From an uncultured Lachnospiraceae bacterium (GTDB taxonomy: Bacteria; Bacillota; Clostridia; Lachnospirales; Lachnospiraceae): DNA of 50,472 nt. The DNA is taken from contig CATJPU010000338.1 in the NCBI GenBank assembly GCA_949742505.1, positions 1-50,472 on the forward strand. Direction: 5' to 3'. The notes under the pieces were generated by a model. The model did not search any database. It was not told the DNA's origin and was given only the letters and a program-made list of their open reading frames with translations. A program made the translations under genes and the position numbers. This document shows positions 27,924 to 32,952 of the stretch, in pieces; position 1 is the stretch's first letter; each line of letters begins with the position of its first letter.

Positions 27924-28313
27924 CTATACCGTTATTATGCAACGCTGCACCAGCCGGGTTGATGGACTGACGTCCGGCAAAGAGTATCCTGATACAATAC
28001 ATGCCGTGCACTCTGCTGCCGGGACTGCCAGCCACACTCCGATAATTCCCAGGAGCTTCGGGAGAATCAGGATTGCCGCCGCAAGCAGCACGAACGTTCT
28101 CACAAATGACAGAAACGCCGCCGCTTCCGTCATCTGTCTGCGAAGCATATAATCATGGAGCGTCATTCCCGTAATCTCCGTAAACATCCTGTGCAAATGA
28201 TATTTTGAATAATGCACAGCCCCAGCCACCCGCTCAAAGTCCATTTTTTCATCCAAATGCGCTTCCATATAAGCAATTGCACGCTCAATCATAGAAATAT
28301 CCTGCAAACCCAT
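27924..28313 (-). pseudogene. Chimeric ORF: AraC-family HTH N-terminus joined to a MATE-transporter-like C-terminal fragment
   Basis: MIERAIAYMEAHLDEKMDFERVAGAVHYSKYHLHRMFTEITGMTLHDYMLRRQMTEAA (AraC) followed directly by FVRTFVLLAAAILILPKLLGIIGVWLAVPAAECTACIV (membrane transporter end). Confidence 0.7.
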
Positions 28314-29334: not shown

Positions 29335-30012
29335 TCACATATATATATACGCCAGAAAATGTAATAGCAACAAATGCAGCGGATAAAAAACATAGAAAAA
29401 ATACTTCATACTCCGCCCTTTCTGCCCGTTATACAAAGCAACAGGCAGCATCGCCAGAGCTCCTACCGTCTGAATTCTGCTGGGCCACAGGAAATTCCAT
29501 GCAGCTCCCGCAAGATACTGCGCCGCCTTCTTCTCCCTTGTCATCCAGAAAATGGCAATCAGTAGAATCCCTCTGAATCCATAATCTGAATGCATAAATT
29601 CAGCCGCCCACATAGCAAGAATCATAATCCCGGCTCTGGTAATGATTTCTCTCTCCCTGTCAAGTAACCACAGCATTCCAAGTCCGATAAATAAGGTTAC
29701 AAATACATTCTGCTTCTCCGGATACCACAAAGACTGATGAAAAGCCAAATCAAAAGGAATCTCTGAAACAATTACAAAGATGCCAAGCCTTGCTATATAC
29801 TTTGCCGCATTCCTCGTATGATAATATCCCTCCACCAGCAAAAAGCAAAAGATCGGAAACGCCAATCTCCCCACATAGCGAAGCCACACTGCCTCAGGAT
29901 AAATGATTACGCCCATATGATCAATCAGCATTGATATAATTGCCAGAACTTTCAACTGAAATGTCGTAAGTCCCGCTTTTCTTTCTATTACATTTTCCAT
30001 CGTACTATCCAT
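29335..30012 (-). CDS. TraX family membrane protein
   Basis: TTFQLKVLAIISMLIDHMGVIIYPEAVWLRYVGRLAFPIFCFLLVEGYYHTRNAAKYIARLGIFVIVSEIPFDLAF. Confidence 0.9.
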   Translation of the reverse strand: MDSTMENVIERKAGLTTFQLKVLAIISMLIDHMGVIIYPEAVWLRYVGRLAFPIFCFLLVEGYYHTRNAAKYIARLGIFVIVSEIPFDLAFHQSLWYPEKQNVFVTLFIGLGMLWLLDREREIITRAGIMILAMWAAEFMHSDYGFRGILLIAIFWMTREKKAAQYLAGAAWNFLWPSRIQTVGALAMLPVALYNGQKGRSMKYFFYVFYPLHLLLLHFLAYIYM

Positions 30013-31832
30013 TACCTGCCTGCCAGAATCAAAATTGTGCGCTCTGCCACAACAGTCTCATGCTGATTCTCAAGAAGCTCCGGCTCCTTAAGAACCCCCT
30101 CCCTCGTAGAAACAATCATATACCACTTTCTCTTGCCGGAAAGAGCCGGCAAAGCAAAACTGTGCTCCAGCCAGTGCATATTATAAATGACAAAATAATC
30201 CCCATCTCCTACGGCCGCGCCGCTGTAATATACTCCAAGCTGCCGGCTGCTAAATTCGTCCGGCGTCCGCCATGCATATTCCCCATGATAAGAGACGTCT
30301 GGAACCCCGCACCGTACAGAGTCTAATCCCCGCAAAGGCTCCTCCTGCATAAACACCGGGTGGGACTTGCGCAGCGCAATCAATTCCTTTATCAGTTCAA
30401 AGGTCTCTGGCTGTTTCTTTAATTTGCTCCAGTCCAGCCAGGAAGTAGTATTATCCTGACAATAAACATTATTATTTCCCTTCTGGGTATTCCCGAACTC
30501 ATCTCCCGCCAGAAGACAAGGCGTTCCCTGCGCAAATAACAACAACAGAAAGGCATTGCATATCTGGTTCTTTCTCAGTTCATTGACAGCCTTTTTCCGG
30601 CTCGGTCCCTCAGCTCCACAGTTCCAGCTATAATTACAGTCCGGACCGTCCTGATTATTTTCTCCATTCGCCTCATTATGCTTACTGTCGTAAGAAACCA
30701 AATCATTTAGGGTAAATCCATTCTGACTGGTGATATAATTATAAGTATCCTTCGTATGATGATTCAGCCAGTAAATTACTCCTCTCACCATGCCTTCGTC
30801 TCCTTTTAGGAATCTGCGCATCGTGTTCTGAAAATCCTCTCTGTGTACAAGAATCTTCGTCTTTTTCAGTATCGGATCAGTATAGATTATATCCATCGGA
30901 GCAACTCCGGGATTTAAAATAAATCCGTCTATATGGTATTCCATCCTATAATACCGAAGGCATTCTTCCATCATTTGCTTTGATGCTCCGCTGTCGAAAG
31001 GCATCTCCAGTATTACTTCAATCCCCGCCTTATGGCAGGATTTTACCATATCTTTCAGTTCATTTACCGCATTTTTTGACGCGGCATAACTCTTCTTAGG
31101 CGCAAAGTAATAGCCTGGACCATATCCCCAATAATTAATCACTGTTCTCGTATACTCATCAAATTCATAAACCGGCATACAATGAATCTGATTAATGCCA
31201 AGTTCCGTCAGGTATGGAAGCTTCTCCACAATTCCCTGAAATGTCCCCTTATGTTTCACTTTAGATGTGGAATGCTTTGTAAATCCCCTTACATGCAGAC
31301 TATAGGCAACTACCTGATTCATAGGAATATTTAAGGGCTCGTCCCCTTCCCAGTCATACTTCTCCCACACAAGTTCTCCCCGCCGCTTTGCCATCTCTCT
31401 GCCAGTACTTATCTCTCCCGGAAAACCTTCCCTCTGCACTCCATACGAAGCCCCGGCAGACTTGTCACATCTCATCTCTTCGACAGACGCCGGCTTCTCT
31501 GCTCCATGAGCCCCCTCTGCCGGCAGATTCTTCTGTTCTCCGCGGCATCTGACCTTTGTAAGTCGCTTTGTATAAGGGTCCACATAATCCTTACCGTCAA
31601 CCCGATAGAGATACTCGCAAGGCTTATCGCCTATATCTTCCACTCCCACGCAGCGCACTTCTCCCACTGCCGTCTCCTCTGTAAGTTCACATGAAAAAAC
31701 AGGGTCCTCCCCCTTCCTATGGTATAACAGGAGCTCGCATGCCTTCCCCTGCGGGATTGCAACCGCGAAATTCAACCCTTTATCTGTTCCTGTTACTCCA
31801 AGAGGTAATGGTGTTCCCTGTGTCTGCTTCAT
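30012..31832 (-). CDS. GH13 isoamylase/GlgX-like protein, predicted catalytically inactive
   Basis: SLHVRGFTKHSTS...GTFQGIVEKLPYLTELGINQIHCMPVYEF; NGFTLNDLVSYDSKHNEANGENNQDGPDCNYSWNCGAEG; QGTPCLLAGDEFGNTQKGNNNVYCQDN: isoamylase scaffold is clear, catalytic residues are replaced (see findings). Confidence 0.9.
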   Translation of the reverse strand: MKQTQGTPLPLGVTGTDKGLNFAVAIPQGKACELLLYHRKGEDPVFSCELTEETAVGEVRCVGVEDIGDKPCEYLYRVDGKDYVDPYTKRLTKVRCRGEQKNLPAEGAHGAEKPASVEEMRCDKSAGASYGVQREGFPGEISTGREMAKRRGELVWEKYDWEGDEPLNIPMNQVVAYSLHVRGFTKHSTSKVKHKGTFQGIVEKLPYLTELGINQIHCMPVYEFDEYTRTVINYWGYGPGYYFAPKKSYAASKNAVNELKDMVKSCHKAGIEVILEMPFDSGASKQMMEECLRYYRMEYHIDGFILNPGVAPMDIIYTDPILKKTKILVHREDFQNTMRRFLKGDEGMVRGVIYWLNHHTKDTYNYITSQNGFTLNDLVSYDSKHNEANGENNQDGPDCNYSWNCGAEGPSRKKAVNELRKNQICNAFLLLLFAQGTPCLLAGDEFGNTQKGNNNVYCQDNTTSWLDWSKLKKQPETFELIKELIALRKSHPVFMQEEPLRGLDSVRCGVPDVSYHGEYAWRTPDEFSSRQLGVYYSGAAVGDGDYFVIYNMHWLEHSFALPALSGKRKWYMIVSTREGVLKEPELLENQHETVVAERTILILAGR

Positions 31833-31842
31833 ATGTTCCTCC

Positions 31843-32850
31843 TTACTGCCATCCGTCAGCTCCGTACATCTTCACATTATCACTGTTAATCATGAACACA
31901 TCTTCATAAATCTCTTCTTCGTATTCATCTCCGTCCAAAATCAAAATCCCGGTTTTGGCCGCTTCTTTTCCTATGCCAATCGGCGACTGGGCCGCCGTTC
32001 CGGCAATCTGTGTGTCCGGCTTCATAAGCTCCTTCTTAATATCTGGCGAGCCGTCCACGCCATAAATCATCACATCTTTTAGTCCCGCAAGATTCACTGC
32101 CGTAGTAGCTCCCACCGCAATCTGATCGTTGCCGCACATGATTACATCAATGTCCTTATGCTCCTTTAACATCTCCTGGGTAATCTCCAGCGCTTTCTGA
32201 AATTCCCCGTTGGTATCCGCCCTGTCTACAATCTCGAATCCCACTTCCGCAGAAGATATCGCTTTCTCAAATCCCGTGATTCTCTCATTAATAGAATTCT
32301 GGGTCGGACATTCCAGAATCAGTATCCTTCCGCCGTCCGGACATTTCTCCAGCAAATCCTCGCCGCAGATATATCCGGCGTTCTCATTATCCGAACCGAT
32401 ATATGCATCCACATATTCCATCTCTTTGACCTGAGTATCCACATTAATAATCTTTACTTCCGCTTCCCTCAGAGCCTCCAGGCTTTCGGTAATCTCCACC
32501 CAGTTCACCGGACAGATGAAAATCGCATCGATTCCCTCGTCTATCATCTCCATAATCTGCTCATTCTGAATGTTTGGATCACTCTCCGGATTCTTCGTAA
32601 TCAAAGTATATCCTTCCTTATCAAGAACCTCCTTAATCGCACTCTCCAGCGTAATAAAATAAGGATTCTCCATATCAATCGCGCTGAATCCAAACTTATA
32701 TCCCGTATCTTCTTCCTCTACTTCTGTCTCGGATTCCTCCTCTGACGAGGCTGCATTATCCTCCGGCGTTCCCACTGCTTTCTTACAGCCATACAAGGCC
32801 AGAATACCTATAAGCAAAACAGCAATCACAATCAATGCTTTCTTTTTCAT
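31843..32850 (-). CDS. Sugar ABC transporter substrate-binding lipoprotein (RbsB-like, periplasmic-binding type I)
   Basis: ATG at 32850 (MKKKALIVIAVLLIGILALYGCKK, lipobox); FSAIDMENPYFITLESAIKEVLDKEGYTLITKNPESDPNIQNEQIMEMIDEGIDAIFICPVN. Confidence 0.92.
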   Translation of the reverse strand: MKKKALIVIAVLLIGILALYGCKKAVGTPEDNAASSEEESETEVEEEDTGYKFGFSAIDMENPYFITLESAIKEVLDKEGYTLITKNPESDPNIQNEQIMEMIDEGIDAIFICPVNWVEITESLEALREAEVKIINVDTQVKEMEYVDAYIGSDNENAGYICGEDLLEKCPDGGRILILECPTQNSINERITGFEKAISSAEVGFEIVDRADTNGEFQKALEITQEMLKEHKDIDVIMCGNDQIAVGATTAVNLAGLKDVMIYGVDGSPDIKKELMKPDTQIAGTAAQSPIGIGKEAAKTGILILDGDEYEEEIYEDVFMINSDNVKMYGADGWQ

Positions 32851-32952
32851 AGTTCCTTCCTCCCTGTGCATACACATCTATTCTACAACATTTTAAAGTG
32901 TTTGACCAGAAAAAAATATTACTTGCCTTTTCAAAGGGTCTCTGCTAAAGTA

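Follow-up and report, generated by a model that had tools for sequence, protein, structure and literature searches.

A family-wide isoamylase-like pseudoenzyme of the Lachnospiraceae, derived from GlgX and predicted to be catalytically inactive

The locus described here raises the question of why a bacterium would keep, in an intact reading frame, an isoamylase-like protein whose catalytic residues have been replaced. The gene lies at 30012..31832 on the minus strand of the window (the whole 50,472-nucleotide stretch of contig CATJPU010000338.1 that was analysed, from a draft genome that is 82% complete and in 351 contigs). It encodes a protein of 606 amino acids (aa) that is GlgX/GH13_11-derived and, by sequence, catalytically dead. 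The preliminary description had reported an intact 606-aa open reading frame at this position, and this was found to be so, the frame starting with ATG and running uninterrupted, with many stops in the plus-strand translation. No signal peptide was seen by eye at the N-terminus. The blocks NEANGE.N.DG and GNNN.YCQDN are common to the pseudo-isoamylase and GlgX. Pfam returns only a partial alpha-amylase domain (PF00128, E 2.5e-12), and the best NCBIfam model is that of GlgX (TIGR02100) at 329.9 bits, about half of the equivalog cut-off of 640.9, several true GlgX proteins of Lachnospiraceae also falling slightly below it. The solved structures nearest by sequence (phmmer) are those of Chlamydomonas ISA1, TreX, rice ISA1 and GlgX.

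An AlphaFold2 model built from a 48-sequence alignment (pLDDT 87.3, pTM 0.89) has the domain layout of a CBM48 domain, a (beta/alpha)8 barrel and a C-terminal beta domain, and only aa 96-147 are largely disordered. The N-terminal domain (aa 1-93; 31554..31832, minus strand) is modelled as an all-beta sandwich with a pLDDT of ~92 and is called CBM48-like from its position and its fold similarity to GlgX, there being no Pfam CBM48 match. The linker that follows (aa 94-147; 31392..31553, minus strand) is predicted to be disordered, with pLDDT <50 at 96-137 and 140-147, and is in part an insertion that the alignment places in the window protein and its nearest congener only. The top Foldseek matches are rice and Chlamydomonas ISA1, Streptomyces venezuelae GlgX and TreX, with ISA2 lower (query TM 0.76-0.85), and the top PDB matches of the model are all isoamylase, GlgX or TreX. 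The comparison with GH13 structures proposed in the preliminary description thus returned an isoamylase fold, and the catalytic columns hold no combination of Asp, Glu and Asp, as judged by alignment and not by atomic superposition.

Catalytic columns were read after aligning 92 distinct clade members (for the most part a single one from each Lachnospiraceae genus, family being assigned by named relatives) with 24 GlgX sequences, among them E. coli GlgX, in which D336, E371 and D443 were confirmed in the sequence as the catalytic columns. The named relatives are Lachnospiraceae or loosely clostridial, for example Dorea, Roseburia, Butyrivibrio, Acetatifactor and Velocimicrobium. The changes that had been described in regions I, II and IV are all present where they had been placed. 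In region I (aa 276-281; 30990-31007, minus strand) EMPFDS replaces DVVxNH, the Asp having become Glu and the His Ser in the alignment with the 24 GlgX. In region II (aa 303-307; 30912-30926, minus strand) GFILN replaces GFRFD, which puts N307 at the nucleophile column and removes the Arg, as alignment with GlgX confirms. In region IV (aa 370-372; 30717-30725, minus strand) QNG replaces HDG, so that N371 occupies the stabiliser column. Region III, which had been considered unrecognisable and probably deleted, is represented by the remnant KILVH (30843-30857, minus strand) with H330 at the acid/base column, and KILVHREDFQNTMRRF is found from aa 326. The deletion is real but at the level of the genus, the shortening being a later event confined to the genus of the window and its nearest genera; in clade members beyond these the region III stretch is present and its Glu is mostly absent. 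A further change, additional to those in the preliminary list, is the absence of a segment of ~40 residues between regions I and II, with the junction at approximately aa 284/285 (30978..30983). The missing segment is the equivalent of E. coli GlgX 270-310 (AEGNE...NCNHP) and is absent from 92/92 pseudoenzymes and present in 24/24 GlgX in the alignment.

Across the 92 pseudoenzymes the nucleophile Asp (D336 column) occurs once, the acid/base Glu (E371 column) in 11 and the stabiliser Asp (D443 column) in 17; two of the three residues coincide in three members, and the full triad is found in none of them, as against all 24 GlgX. The sole Asp at the nucleophile column belongs to the member from genome G015 (L055:9373-11127), where the motif reads GFVLD and the other catalytic residues are gone. 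Canonical orthologs, which would have pointed to a sequence error or recent decay, were therefore not encountered. We regard the existence of an isoamylase-like pseudoenzyme clade as close to certain, and the catalytic loss, as predicted from these alignments, is ancestral to the clade and complete. An active enzyme drawing its catalytic residues from elsewhere in the barrel would suit the many glycogen-making genomes in which this is the sole GlgX-like protein, and three members do retain the Glu and the stabiliser Asp together. Against this, the nucleophile column holds N, I, M, L, V, S, Y and further residues, none of which serves as a common replacement, the clade has lost the region I His, the region II Arg and the entire segment that precedes region II, and the barrel acids that are invariant in the clade belong to motifs also found in GlgX (GDE, DGF, NGE), with no new pair unique to the clade; we consider an active enzyme very improbable. 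Two other positions, K246 (31097-31099) and D504 (30321-30323), are ~95% conserved in the clade and differ in true GlgX, and are candidates for a gained function.

The main surprise of the clade is its broad distribution. A first draw of 41 genomes gave open-frame orthologs in 9 of 10 congeners (best stretch 66-84% identical), and more distant orthologs in the majority of Lachnospiraceae genera. Seven of the nine carrier congeners also possess a separate GlgX of ~700 aa with every catalytic residue present; no GlgX was found in the draft genome of the window, which is only 82% complete. In a family set of 100 genomes, one per genus and each at least 90% complete except the window's own, the pseudoenzyme was present in 81 of the 100 genera and true GlgX in 29. 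Wider sampling placed it in 10 of 12 family members and in none of about 104 genomes elsewhere in the order, and in 5 of 7 family members and in none of about 189 other genomes of the class.

A tree of 36 pseudoenzymes and 45 GlgX resolved the pseudoenzymes as one clade (SH-aLRT 100) with a stem length of 0.95 changes per column, and showed them to be faster evolving than GlgX. With E. coli GlgX as outgroup the clade falls inside the GlgX group, its exact attachment being uncertain because the tree is a quick one with long branches. Between congeners the NG86 dN/dS was 0.06-0.12 at dS 0.8-1.7 (0.119 for the pair G000/G003 and 0.056 for G004/G005), and one near-identical congener pair (dS 0.01) gave 0.135. 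The neighbouring genes gave similar values of 0.05-0.13, with 0.088 for the helicase, 0.060 for TraX and 0.053 for DUF5662 in the pair G000/G003. The gene is under purifying selection, the check suggested in the preliminary description being answered both by the dN/dS values and by retention of the gene in 81/100 genera of the family. That the gene is decaying, or is a sequencing or assembly artefact, might be suspected from the incomplete and fragmented state of the draft; the frame is intact in nearly every member, including those from the one-contig genomes G006, G010, G055 and G099, a single in-frame stop was flagged among 81 best matches, and the low dN/dS and family-wide retention add to making this explanation scarcely credible.

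Whether the protein could still hold a glucan was approached through the S. venezuelae GlgX-acarbose complex, in which subsite -1 is contacted by Trp222, Tyr224, His271, Asp342, Glu378, Trp380 and His449 and the other sugars by Arg212, Glu470, Asn534 and Tyr536 (PMC9530166). These contacts were mapped onto the clade via alignment with E. coli GlgX. The aromatic pair that meets the -1 sugar in GlgX is kept as W235-G236-Y237 (31122..31130, minus strand), with W235 in 100% of the clade and Y237 in 92%, the rest having Phe. Among the distal contacts, E391 (30660..30662, minus strand), equivalent to S. venezuelae GlgX E470, is kept in 98%, which is notable because the true GlgX of Lachnospiraceae mostly has Trp there, and N455 and Y457 (30462..30470, minus strand), equivalent to N534 and Y536, are kept in 100% and 91%, the rest of the latter being Trp. 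The equivalent of Arg212 has no conservation in the clade. On the catalytic side, the equivalents of His271, Asp342, Glu378, Trp380 and His449 are found in 2%, 1%, 12%, 30% and 34% of pseudoenzymes, respectively. Measured by permutation against all GlgX-invariant aligned columns, contact retention had p ~0.03 and catalytic loss p 0.0005, neighbouring columns being treated as independent. In the loops of strands 7 and 8, 29 of 37 GlgX-invariant columns are kept at >=90%, whereas between strand 3 and strand 7 only 4 of 45 are kept, so the cleft appears to have one half preserved and its cutting half gone. Retention of the contacts could be structural, since the loops in which they sit show conservation along their whole length. 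Few parts of the pseudoenzymes are as poorly conserved as the CBM48 region. The retained non-catalytic role proposed at the outset, such as glycan binding, gains from the kept glucan contacts, and the function itself is something we still infer. Binding of alpha-glucan by the pseudoenzyme seems moderately probable on these contacts.

The glycogen pathway surrounds the protein in nearly every genome, with glycogen synthase (glgA) in 99 and glycogen phosphorylase in 97 of the 100 Lachnospiraceae genomes; being near-universal in the family, the co-occurrence of glgA and glgP cannot tie the pseudoenzyme to glycogen. GlgX itself is found in 26/81 carriers and 3/19 non-carriers, which is no association (Fisher p 0.26). 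Type I pullulanase was found in 23 and a GH133-type debrancher in 17 of the 100 genomes. Counting GlgX, type I pullulanase and the GH133-type (other pullulanase subfamilies lying outside the count), 37 of the 100 genera carry the pseudoenzyme and none of the three debranchers at the thresholds used, a puzzle in view of the near-universal glgA and glgP. Replacement of the missing debrancher by the pseudoenzyme acting as an enzyme was considered and rejected, a conserved catalytic set being absent from the clade.

These counts bear on a comparison with ISA2 of plants. This isoamylase paralog is non-catalytic and alters the structure of starch via complexes with ISA1 and through hydrolysis-independent functions (PMC12510319). 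The pseudoenzyme might similarly be a regulatory subunit that has to pair with the true GlgX in its cell and tunes the activity of that enzyme. Its origin and loss are of the same kind as those of ISA2 (PMC12510319), its fold matches chains of ISA1-ISA2 complexes, and GlgX accompanies it in the seven carrier congeners mentioned above. However, 55 of the 81 carrier genera have no GlgX, the presence of the two is unassociated, 37 carriers have none of the three debrancher types at the thresholds used, and the protein has no counterpart of the additional N-terminal domain seen in ISA2. An obligatory subunit of this sort is, in our estimate, clearly improbable.

The genome context does not point to glycogen, neither glgA, glgB, glgC nor glgP being found within ~7 kb of the gene in 60 loci. 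Immediately downstream, a gene for a TraX-family membrane protein (29335..30012, minus strand; PF05857, E 1.5e-51) has a start codon that shares one base with the stop codon of the pseudo-isoamylase gene. TraX occupies position +1 in 15/60 loci at a spacing of -53 to +3 nt, and the TraX-family gene here sits in a chromosomal operon-like block. The next gene in the same direction encodes DUF5662 (PF18907; 28654..29214, minus strand), a neighbour conserved in 31/60 loci, at +1 in 19 (often at -4 nt) and, with TraX in between, at +2 in 12. In genome coordinates, DUF5662 follows the pseudoenzyme gene at up to ~0.9 kb and in the same direction in 42 of the 71 genera that have both genes. The DUF5662 protein has invariant His/Asp motifs (H13, H33-D34, H72-H73, H79-H80, E107 and D111) and looks like a metal-dependent helical hydrolase; its AlphaFold model (helical, pLDDT 83.2, pTM 0.81) had no significant PDB match, Pfam returned the DUF alone, and no paper naming DUF5662 was found among the open-access papers searched. 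Upstream, 10 nt away, is a gene for an RbsB-like sugar-binding lipoprotein (31843..32877, minus strand; PF13407), which neighbours the pseudoenzyme in 12/60 loci, restricted to the genus and its closest relatives, and beside which no ABC transporter gene was recognised among the immediate neighbours. Further along, an ORF of 129 aa (27924-28313, minus strand) by eye resembles an AraC-type regulator at its start and the C-terminus of a MATE-type transporter at its end, and may be a deletion scar fusing two genes.

This arrangement would suit a barrel that had been recruited outside glucan metabolism into a small operon with DUF5662 and TraX, for example as a protein-interaction platform or a small-ligand sensor. 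In many genera the gene adjoins or overlaps that for DUF5662, that for TraX or both, with overlaps of 1-4 nt being common, and to this can be added the consistent distance from glycogen genes, the faster evolution of the clade relative to GlgX and its own near-invariant K246 and D504. Such a recruitment does not account for the non-catalytic glucan contacts being kept at 91-100%. Moreover, DUF5662 occurs in 85/100 Lachnospiraceae genera, including 14 of the 19 without the pseudoenzyme, so it is not dependent on the latter, and because its model matches no solved fold it says nothing on the function of the pseudoenzyme. Taken with this evidence, recruitment outside glucan metabolism is considered unlikely.

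The reading that we favour, with moderate confidence and from sequence comparison, is that the protein would be a non-catalytic alpha-glucan-binding factor from a Lachnospiraceae-specific, GlgX-derived clade, acting beside GlgA and GlgP, with no obligatory place in a GlgX complex. A role as glycogen-binding helper is probable because the protein has lost its cutting residues, keeps its sugar-gripping ones and is more widespread than GlgX. A linear alpha-1,4-glucan chain would be held by the half cleft formed by strand 2 and the loops of strands 7 and 8 (W235, Y237, E391, N455 and Y457), and cleavage of a branch would be impossible with the catalytic half gone. The protein could then serve in the cytosol as a glycogen- or maltodextrin-binding factor, either a docking scaffold or a sensor of chain length or occupancy, alongside the near-universal GlgA/GlgP system. 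A scaffold or sensor role rather than that of an enzyme subunit is put forward tentatively, at somewhat short of even chances.

Beyond the features already noted, the protein resembles plant and algal ISA2 in being a non-catalytic GH13_11 paralog that has lost its nucleophile and most of its catalytic residues and is ancient and under selection, and in outpacing its active relatives in evolution (PMC12510319). The two have the same fold (TM 0.76-0.77 to ISA2 chains 9j6x_C and 9xvi_C). They differ in that the pseudoenzyme clade is bacterial and confined to one family, its sequence is closer to ISA1/GlgX (E 7e-66 to 8e-73) than to ISA2 (~1e-32), it begins with the CBM48-like domain without the extra N-terminal beta-sandwich of ISA2, it is missing the ~40 residues that lie between regions I and II, and most of its carriers lack an active isoamylase that could be its partner. 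An origin independent of Archaeplastida ISA2 is favoured by the phmmer scores and the confinement to one bacterial family. A more specific proposal, that of a free-standing glycogen-binding regulator, near-core in the family and working with DUF5662 (and often TraX), as an independently evolved bacterial counterpart of ISA2 that works without its enzyme, is doubtful at present. With GlgX and TreX (2wsk from E. coli, 7u3d from S. venezuelae and 2vnc from S. solfataricus) the pseudoenzyme shares the CBM48-like domain, barrel and C-terminal domain as well as the glucan-contact residues W, Y, E, N and Y, but not the triad, the region I His, the region II Arg or the segment between these regions. 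Regulation of a GlgX is known from Streptomyces, where the c-di-GMP-regulated enzyme uses an ExR(X)6R motif in its N-domain together with arginines of the partner subunit (PMC9530166). Another parallel is GlgD, a non-catalytic gut-bacterial paralog of GlgC kept as a regulatory subunit of glycogen synthesis (PMC10395257), which differs in belonging to an unrelated protein family and in being a subunit of its active paralog. No description of a bacterial inactive GlgX or of the Lachnospiraceae pseudoenzyme was found among the open-access papers searched.

Lachnospiraceae such as Roseburia, Dorea, Blautia and their relatives rank among the dominant commensals of the gut. It has been suggested that storing glycogen is a trait by which gut members of the family adapt to their niche, and a review counted two glgX homologues in Blautia obeum (PMC10395257), one of which may be the pseudoenzyme. 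The pseudoenzyme clade is not separated by family libraries, and general tools are likely to label its members glycogen debranching enzyme or alpha-amylase; the debranching capacity of the Lachnospiraceae has therefore probably been overcounted. Culturable bacteria with a conserved dead isoamylase would also make the question posed by ISA2, namely why selection keeps a debrancher that does not cut, testable by knockouts.
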